Origin: Chthonomonas sp.
GTDB lineage: Bacteria > Armatimonadota > Fimbriimonadia > Fimbriimonadales > Fimbriimonadaceae
DNA length: 64,000 nucleotides
Direction: 5' to 3'
Assembly: GCA_016788425.1 (NCBI GenBank)
Contig: JAEURQ010000004.1
Location: 558,001-622,000, forward strand
Numbering within the stretch: the first letter of the stretch is position 1; each line of letters starts with the position of its first letter. A program made the position numbers and the translations under genes. This document shows, in pieces, positions 2,938 to 64,000 of the stretch. Below the pieces are notes generated by a model. The model saw only the letters and a list, made by a program, of their open reading frames with translations. It was not told the DNA's origin and ran no database searches.

Positions 2938-5200
2938 AAAAAGTTAAGGCATCCTCCACAATCCATTGACAAAGCTCGGCAAAACTCATGCCCGCCGTCT
3001 CGGCCGATTTCGGAACCAGACTCGTCGGGGTCATGCCGGGCAAGGTGTTAATCTCCAGAATGATCGGCCCCTCGGCGGTGACGATCATGTCGGTGCGAGT
3101 GACCCCGCGGCAGCCGAGCAATTGGTGTGTGCGGAGGGCGAGGTCGCTGACCAGCCGCATGGTTTCCTCGGGCAAACGAGCCGGACAAATCTCCTCGGTC
3201 GCGCCGGGTGTGTACTTCGATTCAAAGTCGTAATCCTTGCCGCCGGTCGGGGCAATCTCGACCGGAATCAGAGCGCGATCGCCCATCACGGGCGTGCTGA
3301 TTTCCATGCCGCGCAGACGACGCTCCACCAGCACCGAACTATCGTAGTGCAGCCCCTTAGCGATTGCCACGGCGAGGTCCTCAGGGCGATTGACGAACGT
3401 CACGCCGATGGTGCTGCCCTGGGCGTTGGGCTTGACCACCCATTCATCACCGCCCACCTCGCGGAGCACGCGTTCGGCCGCGTGCTGCGGGTCCTCATTT
3501 GCCGTCACCTGCACCCCAGGCGGGACGGGCAATCCGGCGGCGCGCAGAATCTCCTTGGTCTTTTCCTTGTCCATGGCCAGGGCGCTGGATTGAATTCCAG
3601 GCCCGGTGTAGGGAACACCGATCAGCTCCAAAAATCCTTGCAGAGCGCCGTCTTCGGCGCGGTTGCCGTGGGTCATCAGCACCGCCAAATCGGGGCGATT
3701 TACCCCGGTAAGCGGAGCTAGATCGCGCTGGCCGAGAAGAAGTTCAGTGGCGTCCAGCAGTCGAACTGAATACTGAGTGGAGAGAGCGTTGGCCACGGCG
3801 CGGCCACTGTGCAAAGACACCTCGCGCTCGGCGCTATCGCCGCCGTACAGCACCACCAGTTGCGGCGCGGCGGGGCGATCGAGCTCGGCCAAGAACGCCG
3901 GACCAAACTCGGAAATGTTGCCCGCGCCCATGCCGACGACCACGTCTCCGGCGCGAACCAGCTTGCGGACTTCGGTCGGTAAGCGGTGCCGACTGGGCAC
4001 GTACACTACTTCGCAGGTGACTTGCTCGGCAATCCGCGCCGAGCTCATGCCGGGCATCGGAGCCTCGCGAGCGGGGTAAATGTCGGTGATCACCAGCAGA
4101 TCAGCGGCGCTGAGTGTGCGCGCGAACTCGGGCAGAAAATCGCGAGTTCTTGAGTAAAGGTGCGGTTGATAGACCACCACGACGCGACGGCCCGCGTAGC
4201 GCGAACGAACCGCCTCGATGCTGGCCGTAATCTCGGTGGGGTGGTGAGCGTAATCGTCCAAAACGGCGATCTCGCCTTCGCGGAGCAGTTGCAACCGACG
4301 CTCGGCGCCGCTGTAGGTTTGCACCGCGCGCAGCGCGGGTTCGGCCCCCACGCCCAAGTGGTGGGCCACGGATAGGGCCGCGCGCGCATTCTGCCAATTG
4401 TGTCGGCCCGGCATGCGCATGAGCTGCGAATCCGGCGAATCCCAACCTTCGGCGCCGTAGGGCAGCAGAGTCCCGGCGAACCCGGCAGCTACCTCGCACG
4501 CTCCGGCATCGTCTTTGCAATACACCAGCGTCGAAGCTTGGCTCACGAACGAATTCACGCTGGCGAGGAGCGACTCCCAGTCGCCGTGAAAATCGAGATG
4601 GTCGGGCTCAAGGTTGGTGAGCACCACGATTTCGGCGGGAAGATCGCGCAGGCTGTCGTAGGCCTCGCAGGCTTCAATGACGACCCAATCGCCCGCGCCT
4701 TCGCGCACCGCGCCCCCGAAGTCAGGTACCTCCGCGCCCACAATCGCGGTGGGGTCGAGCCCTCCGGCCAGCAAAGCGCTCGCGACCAATCCGGTGGTCG
4801 TGGTTTTCCCGTGAGTGCCGGTCACGGCAATGACGCGCTTGCCATCCAGCAACCAGCCCAAGAGCTGTGACCGTCGAAAGATCGGGTTGTTGCCGCGGCG
4901 CGCGTCTTGCACCTCGGGGGACTCGTTCAGGTCGATCGCGTCGGTGAGAATCAGTGCGTCGCCAGGCATCACCCAGCCGTTGTCGTGGCCGATTTGAACT
5001 TTGGCTCCCGCCGCGCGCAAGGCGTCAATCACGGCTGAATCGGTGCTATCGCTGCCGGCTACTTGGTAGCCGCGCCGCATGAGCATGTGCGCCAGCCCGC
5101 TCATCCCCGCGCCGCCGATACCGACAAAAAAGAACCGTTGCGCTCGCCCAAGGTCCGCCGTCGAGGCGAAGCTACTGGCAATTTCAACCTTGGTGCGCAT
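2918..5200 (-). CDS. murC-ddl: bifunctional UDP-N-acetylmuramate-L-alanine ligase / D-alanine-D-alanine ligase (MurC-Ddl fusion)
   Basis: This 760-residue cytoplasmic enzyme joins two steps of peptidoglycan precursor synthesis. Residues 1-450 are MurC: the UDP-binding VGIGGAGMSGLA near 26-36, the ATP loop TGTHGKTTT at 127-135, and a Mur C-terminal domain with LDDYAHHPTEI. Residues from about 452 are Ddl: LYGGDSAEREVS, an ATP-grasp core with VVKPNAQGSTIGV, and the C-terminal EINTLPGMTPTSLVP. Both active centres look intact. The same fusion order is known from Chlamydia. The gene begins with ATG and is followed by ftsQ with a 20-base overlap. No separate ddl is seen in the window. The ABC transporter upstream is on the same strand, 44 bases away. 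Confidence 0.95.
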   Translation of the reverse strand: MRTKVEIASSFASTADLGRAQRFFFVGIGGAGMSGLAHMLMRRGYQVAGSDSTDSAVIDALRAAGAKVQIGHDNGWVMPGDALILTDAIDLNESPEVQDARRGNNPIFRRSQLLGWLLDGKRVIAVTGTHGKTTTTGLVASALLAGGLDPTAIVGAEVPDFGGAVREGAGDWVVIEACEAYDSLRDLPAEIVVLTNLEPDHLDFHGDWESLLASVNSFVSQASTLVYCKDDAGACEVAAGFAGTLLPYGAEGWDSPDSQLMRMPGRHNWQNARAALSVAHHLGVGAEPALRAVQTYSGAERRLQLLREGEIAVLDDYAHHPTEITASIEAVRSRYAGRRVVVVYQPHLYSRTRDFLPEFARTLSAADLLVITDIYPAREAPMPGMSSARIAEQVTCEVVYVPSRHRLPTEVRKLVRAGDVVVGMGAGNISEFGPAFLAELDRPAAPQLVVLYGGDSAEREVSLHSGRAVANALSTQYSVRLLDATELLLGQRDLAPLTGVNRPDLAVLMTHGNRAEDGALQGFLELIGVPYTGPGIQSSALAMDKEKTKEILRAAGLPVPPGVQVTANEDPQHAAERVLREVGGDEWVVKPNAQGSTIGVTFVNRPEDLAVAIAKGLHYDSSVLVERRLRGMEISTPVMGDRALIPVEIAPTGGKDYDFESKYTPGATEEICPARLPEETMRLVSDLALRTHQLLGCRGVTRTDMIVTAEGPIILEINTLPGMTPTSLVPKSAETAGMSFAELCQWIVEDALTFYGAKAR

Positions 5201-12403: not shown

Positions 12404-13484
12404 TGGAAGCCTCCGTGAGCCCTTGCGCGGTGGCGCGGCGGGTGAATTCGTTGACGTTGCTGGACTTGCCGACCGCATGCTCGAAGTCAATCTGACCATC
12501 TTTGATGAGCTGCAGCAAGTTGCCGTCGAGGGTCTGCATGCCGAACTGCGAGCCGGTCTGAATGTCCATATAAAGCTGGTGCGTTTTTCCTTCGCGAATG
12601 AGAGTGCGAATGGCCGGCGTCGCGACCATGACCTCGAACGCCGCCACGCGTCCGGTTCCGTCTTTGGTCGGCAGCAGGGTTTGCGAAACAACCGCCTGAA
12701 TCGTCACGCCAAGTTGGGTTCGAATCTGCGCCTGTTGACCGGGCGGGAAGACGTCCACAATCCGGTCAATCGTCTGCGCGGCGTCCACCGTGTGCAACGT
12801 ACTGAACACAAGGTGACCGGTTTCCGCGGCGGTGATGGCGAGTTGAATGGTTTCCAGGTCGCGCATTTCACCGACCAGAATAATGTCGGGATTTTGGCGC
12901 ATGACGTGCTTGAGCGCCTCGGAAAAGCTGTGCGTGTCCGTGCCCAGTTCGCGCTGATTGATGATGCTCTGAATGTCCTTGTGGACGTACTCGATCGGGT
13001 CCTCAATCGTCATGATGTGAGCCCGCTTGCTCAGGTTCACGTGGTTGATCATCGCCGCGAGACTTGTGGATTTTCCCGAGCCGGTCGGCCCGGTGACCAG
13101 CACCAGCCCGCGCGGCATCATCGAGATCGCCTTGGTCGCTTGCGGCATGTGCAAATCGTCGATCGTGCGGATGTTAAACGGGATCAGGCGGAAGACCGCG
13201 CCGATTTTACCGCGCTGCCAAAACATATTCACGCGGAATCGCGCGAGGCCCTCCACCTGGTAGCTGAGGTCAACTTCTTTGTAGCTGTACAGTCGCTCTT
13301 TGCGGTCCTCGCTCAGGATGCTGAGCAGCAGTTCGTGCGTCATTTCCTCGCTGAGCGGGGGTTGATTCACGCGCTTGAGCTCGCCGCGCACCCGCATCAG
13401 CGGCGGGTTATTCGCCTTGATATGCAAGTCGCTGGCGTCTTGCTGCACGAGCTCGCGTAATAGGTTGTCGATCAGTGCGGCCAT
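12390..13484 (-). CDS. pilT: type IV pilus twitching motility ATPase PilT
   Basis: PilT powers depolymerisation of type IV pili. The 364 residues have an N-terminal PAS-like domain and Walker A GPTGSGKST at 132-140. They also have the Asp box TIEDPIEYVHKD, Walker B LVGEMRDLETIQLA and the His box GHLVFSTLHT. All catalytic motifs are intact and the length is typical. A TAAACT box lies ten bases upstream of the ATG, suggesting a promoter with a very short leader. It overlaps the second pilT-like gene by 14 bases. No pilin or pilB gene is visible in the window. Confidence 0.93.
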   Translation of the reverse strand: MAALIDNLLRELVQQDASDLHIKANNPPLMRVRGELKRVNQPPLSEEMTHELLLSILSEDRKERLYSYKEVDLSYQVEGLARFRVNMFWQRGKIGAVFRLIPFNIRTIDDLHMPQATKAISMMPRGLVLVTGPTGSGKSTSLAAMINHVNLSKRAHIMTIEDPIEYVHKDIQSIINQRELGTDTHSFSEALKHVMRQNPDIILVGEMRDLETIQLAITAAETGHLVFSTLHTVDAAQTIDRIVDVFPPGQQAQIRTQLGVTIQAVVSQTLLPTKDGTGRVAAFEVMVATPAIRTLIREGKTHQLYMDIQTGSQFGMQTLDGNLLQLIKDGQIDFEHAVGKSSNVNEFTRRATAQGLTEASSGAH

Positions 13485-53466: not shown

Positions 53467-55016
<1,550 letters not shown>

Positions 55017-55020
<4 letters not shown>

Positions 55021-55091
55021 TGGCAGGGCTCCGTTTGTTCAAGACTCGTCATGTCTGTCGAATGCTCACCTGTTTTTTTCATTTTCTTCAT
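55017..55091 (-). CDS. possible 24-residue leader peptide coupled to the recombinase
   Basis: A short frame starts at ATG 55091 with MKKMKKTGEH, contains a poly-lysine start, and its TGA overlaps the recombinase ATG (ATGA). An in-frame TAG lies 14 codons upstream of its ATG, with no alternative ATG, GTG or TTG between. TAGGGT lies eight bases before the ATG, as in near-leaderless promoters of this window. It may serve translational coupling rather than make a functional peptide. Chance is possible because the frame is short. Confidence 0.3.
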
Positions 55092-55312
55092 CGCTGAAAA
55101 CCCTATCGTTCTGGGGCTTGGTCTTTCGCACAGCTACCTGATGTTTCCTTTACTCACCACTTGAATTCGGATTGATTTACGAGCAGTCTCCGTCCGTTTT
55201 CGGTCGGAATTCTGGGTTAAGTCGAGAAATCTTTGACATCATCCAGGTTCAGAGCGCAACGATTTGAACCTGATAAGCGCTTGAAAGCACCAAAACTCTC
55301 GACTTGGATTGT
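55092..55312. other. AT-rich intergenic region of the island
   Basis: This stretch between the recombinase leader and the ArdC-like gene holds no convincing gene. It contains the imperfect inverted sequence CCGTCCG TTTT CGGTCGG near 55190 and a TTGACA at about 55233 on the plus strand without a fitting -10. It may contain recombinase-binding or regulatory sites. Confidence 0.35.
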
Positions 55313-56191
55313 TCACACTCCGACTAAATCGCCCTTCACCCGAGTTGGAGCAGTTGGCGTGTCATCTTGATGGTGAGTCCCTTGAATCCAATCAGCCGCT
55401 CTTTGAGCTTGGGACGCCGCTCGAATAATGTAGGAGGAGTCGTTACGCAACGCCTTCAAGAGCCATGAAGCAACGTAGCTGGTGCATGGCGTGATGTTGT
55501 CGATTCCAGCTTCGGAACACAGGAATGCTGCCCCGATTTCAGCCAAAACTTCCTCAGCTCCGTAAGATTCAGACCCAAACTTGACTTGCTGTTCAAACAC
55601 CGGGCGATTGAGTCGGGTCGGATGCGCTGTGCTATGAACCAGTTCGTGCAGGAGCGTCGCATAGAAGGCTTCTGGCGACTCGAAATCTCGCAAGTGCGGC
55701 ATCACCACCTGGTCACGCTTTGGGTAGTAAGCGGCAATTTTAGCGCCTACCTGGATTTCAGGAGCGTCCTTATAACCTGCGACGATGGCTTTCGCTCCCT
55801 CAACCCCGAATAACGATTCTTGCTGTGGTTTCTTTGACTCGGGCAATTGAAGTCCTTGGCATTGTTCGATATTGAAAACTGTGAAAGCTCGGCAAACCAA
55901 GCGCTCCTTCCCCGTTTCCACATCCTCTACGTCCGACCATAACATCACGGTCGAACCCCGCTCGCCACGCTTGACCGAACCAGATACACTCTTTGCCTGA
56001 TTAAAGGTGAGCCATCGGTGGTCGGTGTACTCGCTCATTGAAAGAATGAAGCGGTTGATGCCCCGATAAGGTCTCCCGGTGAGTGCATTACAAGGAGACT
56101 TCGACTTCCACGGCTTGTGCCACGGGAGAACGTCGCCACGTTCGATTGCCTTGATTACTTGGTCGGTGATTTTCTGATAGGTGCCTCGCAT
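55313..56191 (-). CDS. ArdC-like anti-restriction / ssDNA-binding zincin protein
   Basis: The 292 residues have an N-terminal ArdC-type domain (YQKITDQVIKAIERGDVLPWHKPWK, then RPYRGINRFIL) and a zincin domain. HELVH lies at 182-186, with a downstream glutamate in EEVLAEIGAAFL as third ligand. ArdC proteins of plasmids and integrative elements protect incoming single-stranded DNA and counter restriction. Here it lies in an island that also encodes a methylase module. It follows the unknown gene at 56230 by 38 bases on the same strand. Confidence 0.85.
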   Translation of the reverse strand: MRGTYQKITDQVIKAIERGDVLPWHKPWKSKSPCNALTGRPYRGINRFILSMSEYTDHRWLTFNQAKSVSGSVKRGERGSTVMLWSDVEDVETGKERLVCRAFTVFNIEQCQGLQLPESKKPQQESLFGVEGAKAIVAGYKDAPEIQVGAKIAAYYPKRDQVVMPHLRDFESPEAFYATLLHELVHSTAHPTRLNRPVFEQQVKFGSESYGAEEVLAEIGAAFLCSEAGIDNITPCTSYVASWLLKALRNDSSYIIRAASQAQRAADWIQGTHHQDDTPTAPTRVKGDLVGV

Positions 56192-57382: not shown

Positions 57383-57859
57383 CTAAAGTGTCAGCGAAAC
57401 GAGCTCTGTCAAGATTGAACGGGCAACCCCAAATCGCTCTAGATGCGAACTCAAATCAGCAAGTTCGTTCTGCTCGACGGAGCGACGATATGCTTGGTCC
57501 GAGTCAGATTCGATGCCGTAGAGTCCAGCGCTAGTCAGCCGTTCGATGCGAAAGCACCCGTTGCCCGTTTCATATCGAACCTCCGCTTCAGCCCTACACG
57601 ATTCAAACCACCAGTTGTGCGCTCGAAAATCTCGGAGGCGCTCAGAGTCCTCACGAGCGTAGTGTTCGCAAGCATTCCAAATCGACCCGAACCGCTCGGC
57701 AACCCTTGCCTTGTCTGCATTCGAAACGTGTGACCAAGCAGTTCCATCGACCCCAAAGTGGTCTTCAGCAGAGCGTTCCAGATAGTCGGGTTCCCCATGT
57801 GGGTCGTGCTCCCAAACGAGTCGAACCGAGTGAACAAATGGTCGTGAGAGGTCAGACAT
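57383..57859 (-). CDS. unknown island protein of 158 residues
   Basis: I do not recognise this acidic, soluble protein. It starts SDLSRPFVHSVRLVWEHDPHGEPDYLE. It contains several aromatic and Asp/His clusters (HFGVDGTAWSHVSNADKARVAERFGSIWNACEHYARED), then AHNWWFESCRAEAEVRY and GLYGIESDSDQAYRRSVEQNELADL. The regular structure and its position upstream of the three-gene set suggest a real gene, perhaps one of the many mobile-element accessory genes. Regulation may come from the divergent region at 57860-57952, which holds the antitoxin operator. Confidence 0.6.
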   Translation of the reverse strand: MSDLSRPFVHSVRLVWEHDPHGEPDYLERSAEDHFGVDGTAWSHVSNADKARVAERFGSIWNACEHYAREDSERLRDFRAHNWWFESCRAEAEVRYETGNGCFRIERLTSAGLYGIESDSDQAYRRSVEQNELADLSSHLERFGVARSILTELVSLTL

Positions 57860-57916
57860 AACTCTCTACCAATCAGCATTGCGCAGTTGAGGAAAGTCTG
57901 TCAATTCTCCGGGTAT

Positions 57917-57940
57917 CGTATCATAGAAAAGTATGATACG
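57917..57940. promoter_or_regulatory. perfect palindromic operator before the antitoxin-methylase operon
   Basis: CGTATCATA (57917-57925) and TATGATACG (57932-57940) are exact inverted copies with six bases between. The site lies 12 bases before the antitoxin ATG and its GAGAGGAG ribosome site begins directly after it. This is the usual arrangement of autoregulated Phd/YefM-type operators. It also lies 58 bases upstream of the divergent 57859 gene. Confidence 0.8.
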
Positions 57941-57952
57941 AGAGGAGTCACG

Positions 57953-58147
57953 ATGCTCGATTTAAGGCAGGTCTATTCACTCACAGATTTTCTTCGCAAC
58001 CACAAGGAGCACATCGCTCGTCTCGTGGAATCGAAGGCACCGGTCGTTTTGACTGTGAAGGGAAAGGCATCGCTGGTGCTCCAGGACGCCGAGGGGTATC
58101 AAGAGCTTCTGGAGAGACTCGAACGGGCTGAAGGGAAAAGGGGATGA
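57953..58147 (+). CDS. Phd/YefM-like antitoxin or operon repressor
   Basis: The 64-residue protein, from ATG 57953 with AGAGGAG upstream, reads MLDLRQVYSLTDFLRNHKEHIARLVESKAPVVLTVKGKASLVLQDAEGYQELLERLE. This fits the Phd/YefM fold: an N-terminal DNA-binding part and a short helical C-terminal tail. The PVVLTVKGKASLVLQDAEGYQ block is characteristic. There is no Doc or YoeB toxin next to it; instead hsdM starts in a four-base overlap. It probably binds the palindrome at 57917-57940 and represses the operon. Confidence 0.85.
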   Translation: MLDLRQVYSLTDFLRNHKEHIARLVESKAPVVLTVKGKASLVLQDAEGYQELLERLERAEGKRG

Positions 58148-60480
58148 ACGCACAAACGCTGGGCTGGATTACAAACTTCATTTGGGGCATCGCCGACGAT
58201 GTGCTGAGGGACGTTTACGTGCGGGGCAAATATCGGGACGTTATCTTGCCAATGGTTGTGATACGCCGCCTTGATGCCGTTTTGGAGCCAACCAAGCAGG
58301 ACGTCCTTGACATGAAGGCGACTTTAGACCAAGCGAACATCGCCGACCAATATACGGCCCTTCGCAGCAAATCTGGACAAGCGTTCTATAACGCTTCACC
58401 CTTCACCCTCCGGGACCTTCAGTCGAGGGCAAAGTCTCAGCAGCTTAGGGCAGACTTCGAAGCCTATCTCGACGGTTTTTCACCGAACGTCCAGGAAATC
58501 CTCGAAAAATTCAAGTTCAGAAACCAGATTCCCACGATGGTTGATGCGGACATCCTAGGCAGTCTGATTGAGAAGTTTCTCGACCGCTCCATCAATCTCT
58601 CTCCGAACCCAGTGATGAATGTCGATGGAACTGAGCGAATCGCTGCTCTCGACAATCATGCGATGGGCACGATGTTCGAAGAGCTCATTCGCAAGTTCAA
58701 CGAAGAAAACAACGAAGAGGCAGGAGAGCATTTTACGCCCCGTGATGTGGTCAAGCTTATGGCAGACCTGATATTCTGGCCAGTCGCCAACAAAATTGAG
58801 TCGAGCACATATCTGGTCTATGATGCTGCCTGCGGGACAGGGGGGATGCTCACCGTAGCTGAAGAACGGTTGCGTGAGATTGGGAGTGCCCAGGGCAAAG
58901 ATGTTTCGATTCATCTCTACGGTCAGGAGGTCAACCCGGAAACATATGCCATCACCAAAGCTGACCTACTTTTGAAAGGCGAAGGCGACGAGGCAGAGAA
59001 TTTTCGATTAGGTTCAACACTGTCCCAGGATGGTTTCCCAACCCGAGAGTTTGACTTCATGCTCTCCAACCCACCCTATGGCAAGAGCTGGAAAACCGAC
59101 TTAGAACGGATGGGCGGCAAAGCTGACCTGTCGGATTCTCGATTCATCATCGACCACGCTGGTGACCCAGAGTTCAGTCTTATCACCCGTTCAAGTGACG
59201 GGCAGCTAATGTTCCTGGTCAACAAGCTCGCCAAGATGAAGCACAACACTCCGCTCGGGAGCAGAATCGTCGAGGTTCATAACGGAAGTGCTCTCTTTAC
59301 CGGTGACGCAGGGCAGGGCGAGTCGAACATTCGGCGATGGATTCTGGAGAACGACTGGCTGGAGGCAATCATCGCCCTCCCGCTCAATATGTTCTACAAC
59401 ACTGGTATCGCCACGTACCTTTGGGTGCTAACCAACCGAAAGCCCGAACATCGCCAGGGCAAGGTACAGCTCATCGACGCAACCCAATGGTTCAAATCGC
59501 TTCGGAAGAACCTCGGCAAGAAGAACTGCGAGCTGGCACCAGAAGACATCCAAAAGGTTATGGACTCTTTCCTCGCTTTTGAGGAAAATGAGCAATCCAA
59601 ACTATTCCCCAACGAAGCGTTCGGATACTGGAAAGTCGTGGTCGAGCGCCCACTTCGGTTGCACAGCCAATTCACTCGCAAAGCAATCGAATGTCTACGA
59701 TTTGCGACCGGTGACGAAACGCTTCGGCGTGAGCTGTACGCCGAGTTTGGACAGCGGCTCCCGTCCGAGTTCGCCAGCATTAGAGCTGCACTTGAGCTTC
59801 GGCTAAAGGTTGATGAACCCGAAAGCGATAGCGATAGTGACGAAGAAGAGACACCTAAGAAGAAGCAAGCAGTCTCTGAAAAGCGCCGAAAGAAGCTCCT
59901 CGACGCCGAAACTTGGAAGCGTGACCAGCGGTTGCACGAAACGGCGAAACAGTTGTCGGGAGCCATCGGGGAGACCCTCTTTGAAGACCACAACGAGTTT
60001 CGTCGGCGTGTTGACAAGACACTCAAGACCCTCGGAATCAAGCTCAGCCAGACAGAGAAGAAAATCATCCTGAAGGCGGTGAGTTGGCGGGAAGAAACGG
60101 CTGCAAGAGTCATCTCAAAGATTCACAAACCCGGCACTGTGGAAGCTGACCCAATGCATGGACTATTTGAGCAAGTCATCGACGGTAAAACCTGTGTGGT
60201 CGAATTCGAACCTGATACCGACCTTCGAGACACCGAGAACGTGCCATTGCTTGAAGAAGGTGGCATCGAAGCGTTCATCAATCGAGAGGTGTTGCCGCAC
60301 GTCCCAGATGCCTGGGTGGACCACACCAAGACCCAGATAGGTTACGAAATCAGCTTCACTCGGTACTTCTACAAGCCCAAGCCTATGCGGACGCTAGAAG
60401 AGATTCGGCGGGACATCGAGGCGCTGGAACAGGAAACCGAAGGATTGCTTGATGAAGTGCTCGTAGAGGTGGAAACGTGA
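58144..60480 (+). CDS. hsdM: type I restriction-modification-like adenine methylase subunit (HsdM), enlarged
   Basis: The 778 residues begin with an HsdM N-terminal helical domain, then HFTPRDVVKLMADL, the SAM motif YDAACGTGG (226-234) and the catalytic NPPY (309-312), with LDNHAMGTMFEELIRKFNEE before. The call as N6-adenine methylase of type I is firm. It is about 250 residues longer than common HsdM. After residue ~500 comes an acidic linker (DEPESDSDSDEEETPKKKQ) and a C-terminal extension with coiled-coil character (TLEEIRRDIEALEQETEGLLDEVL). No HsdS or HsdR follows. The start overlaps the antitoxin stop and the end overlaps the ImmA gene start (GTGA). Confidence 0.92.
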   Translation: MNAQTLGWITNFIWGIADDVLRDVYVRGKYRDVILPMVVIRRLDAVLEPTKQDVLDMKATLDQANIADQYTALRSKSGQAFYNASPFTLRDLQSRAKSQQLRADFEAYLDGFSPNVQEILEKFKFRNQIPTMVDADILGSLIEKFLDRSINLSPNPVMNVDGTERIAALDNHAMGTMFEELIRKFNEENNEEAGEHFTPRDVVKLMADLIFWPVANKIESSTYLVYDAACGTGGMLTVAEERLREIGSAQGKDVSIHLYGQEVNPETYAITKADLLLKGEGDEAENFRLGSTLSQDGFPTREFDFMLSNPPYGKSWKTDLERMGGKADLSDSRFIIDHAGDPEFSLITRSSDGQLMFLVNKLAKMKHNTPLGSRIVEVHNGSALFTGDAGQGESNIRRWILENDWLEAIIALPLNMFYNTGIATYLWVLTNRKPEHRQGKVQLIDATQWFKSLRKNLGKKNCELAPEDIQKVMDSFLAFEENEQSKLFPNEAFGYWKVVVERPLRLHSQFTRKAIECLRFATGDETLRRELYAEFGQRLPSEFASIRAALELRLKVDEPESDSDSDEEETPKKKQAVSEKRRKKLLDAETWKRDQRLHETAKQLSGAIGETLFEDHNEFRRRVDKTLKTLGIKLSQTEKKIILKAVSWREETAARVISKIHKPGTVEADPMHGLFEQVIDGKTCVVEFEPDTDLRDTENVPLLEEGGIEAFINREVLPHVPDAWVDHTKTQIGYEISFTRYFYKPKPMRTLEEIRRDIEALEQETEGLLDEVLVEVET

Positions 60481-61709
60481 GCACGGTCGTTGCGCCAATC
60501 ACACCCGAGGTTCTCGTTTGGGTTCGACGCCAATCTCACCGCACTGAAGAAGAGCTTGCCCAATGTGCGGGCGTACCGCTTGATAAGTACAAGGAGTGGG
60601 AAACCGGCGTCTCCAAACCAACACTGAGGCAGATTGAGAGCATCGCCAATAAGGTCAAGCGCCCATCGGTGGTCTTCTTTATGGCGAGTCACCCTGAAGA
60701 CCCGGCTGACCTGCCCGATTTCAGAACCATTCGGAACGATGCAAGAGCGGATTTCACACCCGAGCTTGCGCTAGAGATTCGTAGAGCCCGCTACCTGCAA
60801 TCTAGACTCGCCGAGGATATCGCCGAGGTCATCCCTGATTGGGAATCGGACTTGCCTTCGTTCAAGCTATCGGACAACCCAGTGGAGTGTGCAGCCGAAA
60901 TCAGAGGTCTCCTCGGCGTTACACTTGATGACCAAAGGAAGTTCAAGCTTGAGAATCGAGGACTTAGGGAATGGCGAAACGCACTCTTCGAATTTGGGGT
61001 GCTCACCTACGGGTTTCGGGTCGAACGTTCCCATGCGCTTGGATTTGCTATTTGGAACACGACGGTTCCTCTTGCTGGGTTCAACCTTGAAGGATTCAAG
61101 AATCAGCAGGTGTTCACGCTGTTTCACGAGTTGGCTCATCTGTGTCTGCGGCAGTCGGCAGTTTCAGACCTCGGTGCCGATAGGATGCAGAGTGGCGACG
61201 ACCTGGTTCGTCTCACAGAAGTCTTCTGTAACCGATTTGCCTCGTCTTTTTTGCTGCCCCCTGGGCAACCCGAGGTTCAGTCGCTCATTGACCGGATTGA
61301 AGCCGACGACGCAACAGATGCTTCTGCAATTGATAAGCTAGCGAGGGGATTTCGAGTTTCAAAGTATGTTTTGTTGCACAGGTTGCTCGAAGCTGGCAAA
61401 ATCCCACCACAGCATGCAAACGGTGTGTTCTCTGGATGGAGGAGCATCGACGAGGAAGAGAATGAGCTCAAACTTCAAAAGAAGAAGGAGAAGGCCGAAC
61501 GAGATAAGCAAACCGGAAAGACTATTCAGAAGTCTCCTGCTGCCGAGTCAGTCACTGCTAGAGGTGAGTGGCTTGCACGGCGAGTTTTACATGCGTTTGC
61601 GAACGGAAAGCTACATTCAAGCGATGCACAGGACCTGCTTGATATCAACGAGCAGCAATTTGCGTCACTTGAACGAGAGCTGTCTCGGAGGAAGGTGGTC
61701 GAACCATGA
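60477..61709 (+). CDS. HTH-ImmA/IrrE family metallopeptidase
   Basis: The 410 residues have an N-terminal XRE-type helix-turn-helix (TEEELAQCAGVPLDKYKEWETGVSKPTLRQIESIAN, 22-59). A metallopeptidase domain of the ImmA/IrrE type follows, with HELAH at 217-221 and a downstream acidic ligand region (RLTEVFCNRFASSFLLPP). The family regulates by cleaving repressors, and XRE-ImmA proteins occur as antitoxin-like partners of PIN-type toxins. The C-terminus has a Lys-rich linker and a small helical domain. It overlaps hsdM and the PIN-like gene by four bases each. Confidence 0.9.
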   Translation: MSTVVAPITPEVLVWVRRQSHRTEEELAQCAGVPLDKYKEWETGVSKPTLRQIESIANKVKRPSVVFFMASHPEDPADLPDFRTIRNDARADFTPELALEIRRARYLQSRLAEDIAEVIPDWESDLPSFKLSDNPVECAAEIRGLLGVTLDDQRKFKLENRGLREWRNALFEFGVLTYGFRVERSHALGFAIWNTTVPLAGFNLEGFKNQQVFTLFHELAHLCLRQSAVSDLGADRMQSGDDLVRLTEVFCNRFASSFLLPPGQPEVQSLIDRIEADDATDASAIDKLARGFRVSKYVLLHRLLEAGKIPPQHANGVFSGWRSIDEEENELKLQKKKEKAERDKQTGKTIQKSPAAESVTARGEWLARRVLHAFANGKLHSSDAQDLLDINEQQFASLERELSRRKVVEP

Positions 61710-62224
61710 GCCACACCTTCTACTGGGACAACAACATAATGACATGGCTCGTTGACCGTTATCCCATCCCAAAGCTCCATGAGCTTGTAGATTCCCAGAT
61801 TCAGAATGGTCACTTAAAGGTGTGTGAGCATGTCTACGATGAAGCGATGGGAAGTCCCGCAAAGTCATGGGCGATGCAGCGTCGGGATGAAGTCCTCGTG
61901 CCGATGACGACGGAAATCCTGCTCGTGCTTCGGGATGTATTGGAGCAACTTCCAGCTTTCGTTGACCACGCTAAGCCAAAGGGCAAGGATGCTGACCAAT
62001 ATTTTGTCGCAACTGTATTGGCGCACCAACGTGGAGTCGGGCAGAACCTGTTGTCTGGCTCACCTGTACTTGTAACTGCCGAACGGAACATGCAAGGACG
62101 GGAGACCCGAATGCGAATCCCAGATGCGTGCGAAGCACTCGGCATCCCATGCGTTGACTTCCACGGCTGGCTGGACCTCTGCGGCTATCGGATTGACATG
62201 GTTCGAACCGATGGAGGAGTCTGA
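61706..62224 (+). CDS. DUF4411 PIN-like nuclease (probable toxin partner)
   Basis: The 172 residues start SHTFYWDNNIMTWLVDRYP, the DUF4411 signature with an acidic PIN-type Asp. They then have VCEHVYDEAMGSPAKSWAM and KGKDADQYFVATVLAHQRG (second acidic cluster). Near the end come VLVTAERNMQGR and IPDACEALGIPCVDFHGWL. DUF4411 proteins paired with ImmA/IrrE (COG2856) proteins have been predicted to form toxin-antitoxin modules. The acidic residues that would bind metal are present. It is co-translated with the ImmA gene before and overlapped by the ATPase frame after. Confidence 0.85.
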   Translation: MSHTFYWDNNIMTWLVDRYPIPKLHELVDSQIQNGHLKVCEHVYDEAMGSPAKSWAMQRRDEVLVPMTTEILLVLRDVLEQLPAFVDHAKPKGKDADQYFVATVLAHQRGVGQNLLSGSPVLVTAERNMQGRETRMRIPDACEALGIPCVDFHGWLDLCGYRIDMVRTDGGV

Positions 62225-62225
62225 T

Positions 62226-64000
62226 TTGGGAGTCCCCGCCACTAACATAGACTACGAAGCGCTCAGTAAGGAGAACTTGATTCGGTACGGAACCGATATC
62301 AAGGACACACTTGAGCACATCGTTGGACTGTATTGCGAGCGAACCCACCTGGTTTTCGAGCTTCTCCAAAACGCTGAGGATGCGCTTCGAAAGAGGAATG
62401 GAGATGGGTCTCGCTCGGTTCGTTTTGAGCTGAGCCGAGCCGGACTAAAGGTTTCGCACTTCGGGAAACCATTTGATGAGCCCGATGTCCGTGGAATCTG
62501 CGGCATTAACAGGAGCACGAAAAAGGAAGAGCTAACCGCTATCGGTCGATTTGGCATCGGATTCAAGTCGGTGTATGCCATCACAGACCAGCCCGAAATT
62601 CGGTCTTTGGGTCAGGACTTCGTAATCCGGGACTATGTCCAGCCACATCGCTTGGAACCGCAGCCTCAGCCGCAAGGCGAAACGTCTTTCTGGTTTCCTT
62701 TCAAGGGCGACCAGGCTTCCGCCTTCGGTGAAATTGGCGAAGGGCTCCAAAAGCTGGATGCCAAAACCTTGCTCTTCCTCGGCCACGTCGAAGAGGTGGA
62801 TTGGCGCATCGAAGGTGGCGCAAGCGGCACCTACTGTCGAGAGTCCGTCGAGTTGCAAGACGGATTGAGACGGGTCACTCTCATCGGCACGACGAGCTCA
62901 GGCGAAGAACTTTCTGAAGAGCAATGGTACGTGTTCTCTCGACCGGTTGAGTCAGATGGCATCGAGGTTGGAGCAGTAGAGATTGCCTACTCGGTGGATT
63001 TGACCGCATCAACAGACGATTTGAAATTGAAGACTGTTTCAGACTCAAGGCTGGCTGCTTTCTTCCCGACTGGTGTCCAAACCAATCTGGGGGTGGTCTT
63101 ACAAGCTCCGTTTCGAACCACTCCAGCTCGGGACAACGTGCCGCCAAAGGACGCCTGGAACCAGCGTCTTGTCCAAGAAACTGCATCCCTGCTAGTCGAA
63201 TCGCTCGGTGTCCTTAGAGACTTGAACTTACTCTCGGTTGATGTCCTTTGCGGCATGCCGATTGATGAGGACGACTTCCAACCAGGCTCGATGTTCCGAC
63301 CACTCTATGATGCGCTAGCCAGCGCTCTCCAAACTCAAGAATTGCTTCCAAAGAATGGTGGAGGTTGGATGCCGAGCTCACAAGCCGCCCTGGCTCGTGG
63401 TCAAGAACTTTGTGAACTCCTAGACTCCGCACAGTTGACATCCCTCTTTGAATCGAAGGAGAATTTGGACTGGCTCAGCGACGCCATTACCCTGGACCGA
63501 ACTCCCGTGCTTCGTAGCTACTTGATGCAAGAGCACAAAATCCGGGAAATCCAGCCTCAGACGTTCGTATCAAGAGTCTCGAAGGAGTTCCTGGAGGACC
63601 AATCTGATGAATGGATTTGCAAGCTCTACGAGTTCCTGTCCGGGCAATCCTATCTTTGGAAAACACCTGGGAATCTGAACAAGCCCTGGGTTCGCTTGAC
63701 TGACGGCACACATGTCGTTGCTTTCACCGGTGAACAGCCCAACGCCTACCTTCCTTCGAAGTCCAGTTCCGGGTTCCAAACAGTGAGTCCCGCTGTTTGT
63801 TCCTCCGAAGATGCTCTGAGCTTTCTCAGCAGCAACCTAAAGCTCAGCGAACCTGACCCCGTCGATGATGTCATCAAGAACATCCTGCCCCTTTACGAAG
63901 AGGGCATGGAACACGATAATCTCGGCCTCTACCGAGAGCATCTCGAAGCGATAATCGCAGCCTATGGCAATCAAAACACCCGAGAGCGGTTCACTTCGGC
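62226..64000 (+). CDS. large GHKL/sacsin-like ATPase (3' end outside window)
   Basis: A frame without stops continues to the window edge (about 591 residues seen). The N-terminus shows the GHKL ATPase boxes: HLVFELLQNAEDAL (N box) and TAIGRFGIGFKSVYAITD (G box), as in Hsp90, sacsin and related large prokaryotic proteins. FPTGVQTNLGVVLQAPFRTTPARDNVPP resembles the middle part of sacsin-type repeats. I chose TTG 62226 for its GGAGGAG site; an ATG at 62211 is an alternative. Proteins of this layout often end with a DUF3883/NOV or nuclease domain, which would lie outside. Its place after methylase and PIN genes suggests an effector or sensor of the module. Confidence 0.8.
   Translation, partial: MGVPATNIDYEALSKENLIRYGTDIKDTLEHIVGLYCERTHLVFELLQNAEDALRKRNGDGSRSVRFELSRAGLKVSHFGKPFDEPDVRGICGINRSTKKEELTAIGRFGIGFKSVYAITDQPEIRSLGQDFVIRDYVQPHRLEPQPQPQGETSFWFPFKGDQASAFGEIGEGLQKLDAKTLLFLGHVEEVDWRIEGGASGTYCRESVELQDGLRRVTLIGTTSSGEELSEEQWYVFSRPVESDGIEVGAVEIAYSVDLTASTDDLKLKTVSDSRLAAFFPTGVQTNLGVVLQAPFRTTPARDNVPPKDAWNQRLVQETASLLVESLGVLRDLNLLSVDVLCGMPIDEDDFQPGSMFRPLYDALASALQTQELLPKNGGGWMPSSQAALARGQELCELLDSAQLTSLFESKENLDWLSDAITLDRTPVLRSYLMQEHKIREIQPQTFVSRVSKEFLEDQSDEWICKLYEFLSGQSYLWKTPGNLNKPWVRLTDGTHVVAFTGEQPNAYLPSKSSSGFQTVSPAVCSSEDALSFLSSNLKLSEPDPVDDVIKNILPLYEEGMEHDNLGLYREHLEAIIAAYGNQNTRERFTS

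Follow-up and report, generated by a model that had tools for sequence, protein, structure and literature searches.

A conserved operator-like core accompanies short Phd-fold genes at the head of defence operons in Armatimonadota

Results

Gene organization of the locus

The window, i.e., the whole 64,000-nucleotide stretch of a Chthonomonas sp. contig that we analysed, carries on its plus strand a short gene (57953..58147) for a 64-aa protein with a predicted Phd fold and without a C-terminal tail, as assigned by Pfam, TIGRFAM, and an AF2 model. Its stop codon overlaps by 4 nt the start of hsdM (58144..60480, plus strand), which encodes a type I methyltransferase of 778 aa with HsdM_N/N6_Mtase domains; owing to this overlap, control of the methylase by the 64-aa protein is plausible. 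Further along the same strand lie genes for an HTH + M78 peptidase protein (60477..61709; RmrA-like in PADLOC), a DUF4411 protein (61706..62224), and a sacsin-like ATPase (62211..64000, running past the window end; TmtA-like in PADLOC), followed by hsdS, an SLFN_AlbA_2/HATPase gene, an HTH_17 gene, and hsdR, up to about 72149 in window coordinates. Since hsdM, hsdS, and hsdR (HsdM_N/N6_Mtase, Methylase_S, and HSDR_N) occur together with other genes in one operon, we classified the locus as a type I restriction-modification (RM) island with cargo.

The genes between hsdM and hsdS vary among relatives (L002, L138–L141): the HTH-M78/DUF4411/sacsin set occupies this position in the own genome, G112, and G125, and a GmrSD_N gene does so in G073, with a similar stretch in G117. 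In L002, an HTH_17 protein of 158 aa (12672–13148) follows a gap of about 320 nt and immediately precedes hsdR; it may constitute a second regulator transcribed from a promoter of its own. Upstream in the window, a serine recombinase gene (53500–55020, minus strand) reaches with its 3' end into a tRNA-Met gene (53467–53543), and an ArdC-like antirestriction gene (55313–56191) lies next to the recombinase gene. The GC content drops from about 0.59 to about 0.51 around 53467–56191, so this region may be the end of the island. A search for a shared mobile-element backbone with the proteins of the island returned, besides hsdM relatives, weak matches (24–32%) only.

A palindrome upstream of the short phd gene

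An inverted repeat, TCGTATCATA-GAAAAG-TATGATACGA, is located at positions 57916–57941, with perfect 10-bp arms (left, 57916..57925; right, 57932..57941; plus strand) and a 6-nt spacer, and ends 11 nt before the phd ATG (57953). The sequence-only reading had described 9-bp arms, CGTATCATA (57917–57925) and TATGATACG (57932–57940), separated by six bases and placed before the ribosome binding site. All of these elements were present; the arms extend by one further pair (T57916/A57941), and the repeat precedes a Shine–Dalgarno (SD)-like GAGAGGAG (57940..57947, plus strand), which overlaps the final two bases of the right arm.

Among 5000 dinucleotide shuffles of the 94-nt region 57860–57953, a perfect 10-bp inverted repeat with a spacer of at most 12 arose in five, and a perfect 9-bp repeat in 14. 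The 64-kb window contains five such 10-bp repeats in total, so it is the position beside the start codon that makes this one notable. A scan of the own genome (four contigs, 2.67 Mb) with the 24-mer pattern, allowing at most three mismatches, matched one place only, the palindrome itself. The 21-base core pattern likewise had one match at zero mismatches, and 13 matches at up to two mismatches versus 12 for a reversed-pattern control. With this single perfect core site, a regulon elsewhere in the own genome was discarded. The three other Phd genes of the genome are all long, and their 100-nt upstream regions each reach fewer than 10 of the 12 core positions.

The same hsdM family is preceded by phd in four other genomes (L005/L138, L009/L139, L008/L140, and L010/L141). 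The sequence-only reading had named conservation of the palindrome in related operons as a check, which the perfect form did not pass: among the loci read, the perfect 10-bp version was found in the own genome only. The nearest relative, L005, is the sole one of the four to keep both arms, with one mismatch. The left half is lost in L139, L140, and L141, three of the five hsdM-type loci, where GTCTGA replaces the left core half and the core scores 9/12 (p = 0.03, 0.105, and 0.107 versus shuffles, so that two of the three do not exceed shuffles). As a test of function, conservation of the full 10-bp palindrome therefore failed, and a shorter core passed.

Conservation of the core

The core, ATCATA-GAAAAG-TATGAT (57920..57937, plus strand; 18 bp), corresponds to the consensus ATCAWA-N6-TWTGAT. 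Of the 13 intact short phd genes, 10 are preceded by an exact copy of it, at positions −16 to −36 relative to the start. Eight of these sites lie at −31 to −36, that of the own locus at −33, and those of L086 and L091 lie at −16, overlapping the start codon. The latter two were spotted by eye across the start codon, a scan of the 100 nt upstream having scored 7/12; their placement suggests leaderless transcripts. The core reaches 10/12 in L085 and 9/12 in L139, L140, and the broken L141.

Within 399,065 bases of Phd loci, the exact core occurs at 13 sites: 10 at intact short phd genes, two at long phd genes (L095 and L098, which belong to the same weakly supported tree group as the short forms), and one elsewhere. 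Among 3600 control windows of 100 nt away from phd starts, 25 reached 10/12 and two reached 12/12, both of which represent the single stray site; as the consensus was derived from the very loci counted with it, the independent evidence comes from these controls only. Core identity was 0.85, versus 0.28–0.35 in the flanks (45 pairs from 10 loci, with the near-copies L138–L140 excluded); apart from the core, the DNA at these sites cannot be aligned. Matches of at least 10/12 were also present upstream of 4/44 long Phd genes in the phylum set and 17/70 in the genome-contig set; looser forms of the site are therefore not exclusive to short genes.

These data bear on the possibility that the palindrome is a functionless product of chance, and that its conserved part is simply a promoter −10 region. 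Such a reading would accommodate the restriction of the perfect 10-bp form to the own genome among the loci read and the differing left halves in three relatives. We nevertheless consider it extremely improbable, given that 10/13 intact loci have the two half-sites without a mismatch and at the six-base distance, and that just 5/5000 shuffles yielded such a repeat.

The palindrome might also act as a leader RNA hairpin that controls translation of phd-hsdM or the stability of the message, with no protein site involved. The own sequence would form a 10-bp hairpin beside the SD element (−12.3 kcal/mol; z = −3.95), but the structure is not kept: of six relatives folded, five had z values between −1.21 and +0.01 and one had −2.38. 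Moreover, the core runs into the start codon in L086 and L091, and where one arm carries A/T changes, in L082, L088, and L089, the other arm does not compensate for them, as a DNA site with W positions would predict. We rejected the hairpin as very unlikely on the grounds that it is not conserved in relatives.

The Hma loci allowed the gene and the downstream system to be separated. A search with HmaA gave 50 matches in 48 genomes; 30 loci were fetched, and the 20 best (>1000 bits) were used. The core was complete (12/12) in all four loci with a short phd gene, and none of the 16 without one reached 10/12, the maximum within 320 nt being 9/12. Likewise, among 39 hsdM loci scanned, the sole 12/12 core was that of L005, which has phd; L018 and L043, without short phd, reached 10/12. 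These sequence comparisons support a core that appears to track the phd gene and not the downstream system.

They also weigh on the proposal that another regulator, a host factor or a different protein of the island, reads the site and that the short Phd does something else. The left half-site has decayed in L139 and L140 although phd is intact in both, as such a proposal would allow. However, the core accompanies short phd in operons with little else in common, is absent from 16/16 HmaA loci without phd, and also precedes two related antitoxin genes (L095 and L098), making a different reader of the site unlikely.

In L043, a viral contig, a 72-aa Phd/YefM protein of another subfamily (4724–4942; Pfam E = 5.4e-9) is encoded before hsdM, with AAAAAGTAATTACTTTTT upstream of its gene, and this is perhaps an independent case of the phd-before-hsdM arrangement. 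Small HTH_17-like (excisionase-like) proteins were also found before hsdM in viral contigs, in L030 by Pfam and in L032 and L034–L038 by eye. On the basis of these cases, a small DNA-binding protein before this hsdM family seems to be a recurring arrangement.

The short Phd protein and its family

The 64-aa protein matched Pfam PF02604 with an E value of 4.4e-6, yet its 26.8 bits lie below the curated cut-off of 29.8; Phd was its sole Pfam match. The match to TIGR01552 (E = 4e-4) was likewise below the curated cut-off. The AF2 model (pLDDT 81, pTM 0.57) has the order E-H-H-E-E-H, and its top Foldseek matches in the PDB were YefM/Phd chains (best E = 0.004, none below 0.001); truncated and operator-bound Phd entries were among the matches. 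Searching PDB sequences by profile with the short Phd yielded no match. The model comparison thus supports a predicted Phd/YefM fold. By the model comparison and Pfam, the protein has the DNA-binding N-terminal domain of the family, and a palindromic operator-like site stands before its own gene; the C-terminal toxin-binding tail is missing, and hsdM, not a toxin gene, comes directly downstream.

A search of 291 genomes of the phylum yielded 61 Phd matches in 42 genomes. Of these, 57 were read and combined with three plasmid loci to give 60 loci; L125, L130, L132, and L136 were dropped, as tblastn did not find them again. Protein lengths were bimodal, with short forms of 64–70 aa (one of 83) versus 44 long forms of 91–112 aa. 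The short genes comprised 13 intact ones, one broken (L141), and two other short or incomplete ones (L122 and L137). A ParE-like ORF was present within 900 nt of 33/44 long but 0/16 short phd loci in the phylum set, and of 57/70 long versus 1/10 short (L173) in the genome-contig set, as judged with an HMM that was built from 14 next genes of the same set and detects ParE only, not Doc or PIN. In L096, L100, and L101, long Phd genes are followed by proteins that by eye are PIN-toxin-like and not ParE-like. The 64-aa protein therefore does not head the classical antitoxin operon assumed by the sequence-only reading, as its relatives among the antitoxins possess a tail that it lacks, and no toxin resembling ParE is encoded next to it.

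In a tree of 130 Phd rows, from which L122 and L137 (differing from the group or incomplete) and the broken L141 were left out, the 13 short forms fell on one side of a branch with 100/99 support. This branch sits within a weakly supported group (84/84) together with 12 long Phds, mostly of the same phylum; the tree is based on few columns, its bootstrap had not settled, and its root is arbitrary. Short forms of the group made up 7/80 in the genome-contig scan (best 80 of 195 relatives), and all seven apparently derive from phylum genomes already in the set. The other short forms in that set, L173, L175, and L204, lie outside the group, and L173 has the ParE-like ORF nearby. A scan of viral contigs with the short Phd found no relative, and a plasmid search with Phd gave four matches, of which H41–H43 are long antitoxins followed by RelE/ParE. 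The plasmid search with HsdM returned 818 records.

Within the phd-hsdM relatives, phd is broken by an in-frame TGA in L010/L141, and a fifth genome, G091 (L007), retains a phd remnant only (E = 2e-4 over 64 nt). We considered whether the short Phd is still an antitoxin, with its toxin in the operon or elsewhere, e.g., the DUF4411 protein. The Phd-family fold and the HTH-M78 + DUF4411 pair in the operon would suit such a role. It is nonetheless decidedly improbable: the tail is missing, the own DUF4411 had matches (tblastn, E up to 1e-5) in 2/14 other short-phd sequences (L138 and L140), and hsdM is open both in G117, where phd carries a stop, and in G091, with its remnant. Decay of phd beside an open hsdM is easier to reconcile with a repressor that can be dispensed with than with an antitoxin that the cell needs.

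Operons headed by short phd genes

By the models used, 11 of the 13 intact short phd genes head defence-like operons (RM-type, Hma, or BREX). A type I RM system with the same hsdM family follows in the own locus, L138, L139, and L140. Hma follows in L082, L083, L088, and L089, with HmaA confirmed in all four genomes, and HmaB and HmaC scanned in L088 only. L084 has BREX (BrxA, BrxB, and BrxC). The gene in L085 heads another methylase, with HsdM_N + N6_Mtase domains; its top PADLOC model carries a type II label and the runner-up a type I label, and a weak HsdR-like match (25%) is present downstream. In L086, a ResIII/Mrr helicase and an N6_N4 methylase follow. The two genes with no recognised defence system behind them are those of L091, followed by an AAA_5 protein without a PADLOC match, and L094, followed by a serine recombinase.

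We compared stretches that began 500 nt upstream of phd and extended 1500 nt beyond it. When the operons differed in type, DNA similarity was confined to about −48 to +194 of the phd start, with the exception of the pair L086/L091, which shares a second similarity block further upstream. Among the Hma loci themselves, similarity continued through the operon, as expected within one type. The contigs of L086 and L091 (L232 and L237) belong to two distinct genomes and carry unlike operons behind their short phd genes; they nevertheless have 3.4 kb in common at 93% and a further 1 kb at 90%. A shared mobile element is possible behind this likeness.

Discussion

We propose that the palindrome is probably the operator of a 64-aa Phd-fold autorepressor, a former antitoxin that serves as the exchangeable head of defence operons. 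The sequence-only reading had regarded it as an autoregulatory site of Phd-type proteins. That part of the reading held up with respect to the Phd/YefM fold and to an 18-bp core that recurs before relatives and follows phd, and gave way with respect to the perfect 9/10-bp palindrome, which is not conserved.

An antitoxin ancestor would have lost its toxin and the toxin-binding C-terminal tail and kept its operator. A dimer of the short Phd may bind ATCAWA-N6-TWTGAT, which reaches the ribosome-binding site and would cover the likely −10 region of the promoter, where the −10-like motif is WAKAAA. In the own locus this would be a possible, weak hexamer, TAGAAA (57924..57929, plus strand), deduced from conservation only; a sigma-70 scan of 57700–58200 found no promoter-like site, so we infer the promoter from that conservation. 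The short Phd would thereby repress phd itself as well as hsdM and the downstream genes, all of which may be co-transcribed as one operon. As the tail is absent, a toxin could not bind in the known manner; one would therefore expect no conditional cooperativity, and the simplest reading is plain autorepression. Together with the short phd gene, the operator would form an exchangeable regulatory head, which in other genomes of the phylum precedes Hma, BREX, and further operons, including one with another HsdM-type methylase. With hsdM translated right behind phd and hsdR about 11 kb downstream, methylation may come first after transfer.

In Phd, dimerisation, operator binding, and repression reside in the N-terminal domain, and the yefM L palindrome overlaps the −10 region (PMC4803016). 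The 64-aa protein shares the fold of the Phd/YefM antitoxins (phd-doc and yefM-yoeB) by model comparison; unlike them, it has neither tail nor toxin, its core is ATCAWA-N6-TWTGAT versus their TGTACA, and the genes behind it and its kind are mostly defence systems.

Small operon-head repressors of defence are already known: RptR (PMC12255303), BrxR (PMC9122601), and CapS (PMC13373217). RptR, a small repressor encoded by the first gene of a type I RM island, acts at sites overlapping the −10 box; a toxin-antitoxin module is embedded in that island, and RptR also occurs before other modules (PMC12255303). The short Phd resembles it in being encoded at the operon head of a type I RM island and likewise before other modules. 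However, RptR is all-alpha, 79 aa long, binds TAGCTA sites, and is described as conserved across Gammaproteobacteria (PMC12255303), whereas the 64-aa protein has a predicted Phd/YefM fold (E-H-H-E-E-H and hence not all-alpha in the model) and a single longer putative operator, and was found in Armatimonadota here. TAGCTA was not found in 57860–57953, and the RptR paper does not mention Phd or YefM (PMC12255303).

The BrxR family consists of WYL regulators that stand beside diverse defence systems and repress at inverted repeats (PMC9122601), a likeness in that one regulator family accompanies varied defence systems; with several domains and about 34 kDa, the WYL protein BrxR differs from the 64-aa protein, which has a single domain and no sensor domain, and the BrxR paper does not mention Phd (PMC9122601). 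CapK/CapS pairs a kinase with a STAS-like repressor; CapS is likewise a small operon-head repressor of a defence system, of a fold other than that of the 64-aa Phd (PMC13373217). In the pneumococcal tvr type I RM locus, the Phd-Doc-like proteins TvrAT act on tvrR expression, and that study gave no evidence of an addiction-module role (PMC6265443). TvrAT sets a precedent for an effect of Phd-Doc-like proteins on expression within a type I RM locus and differs in being a Phd-Doc pair between hsdM and hsdR, with TvrT, not TvrA, as the active part (PMC6265443). The wHTH + WYL architecture of BrxR is not found in the 64-aa protein.

The controller (C) proteins of type II RM systems are HTH proteins; the short Phd, by contrast, resembles Phd/YefM and is encoded at the head of type I RM, Hma, and BREX operons. 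C proteins too are small operon-head regulators of restriction, as mentioned in the RptR paper (PMC12255303). An open-access literature search, with subscription journals mostly outside its scope, found no description of this short-Phd/operator head.

Regulators of defence operons are known from few families, e.g., BrxR, RptR, and CapK/CapS. An antitoxin that seemingly turned into a defence regulator would offer a testable route from a toxin-antitoxin module to a defence switch, and the short Phd together with ATCAWA-N6-TWTGAT provides a signature for seeking further defence operons. More tentatively, the head may be a portable socket in which a stripped antitoxin, perhaps no less labile than its ancestors, silences the defence system that follows, and its loss at phage takeover or upon transfer into a naive cell would relieve repression and switch the system on. 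If this were true, at least four kinds of defence (HsdM-type RM, Hma, BREX, and a helicase/methylase pair) would have been interchanged behind a common head in a single phylum.
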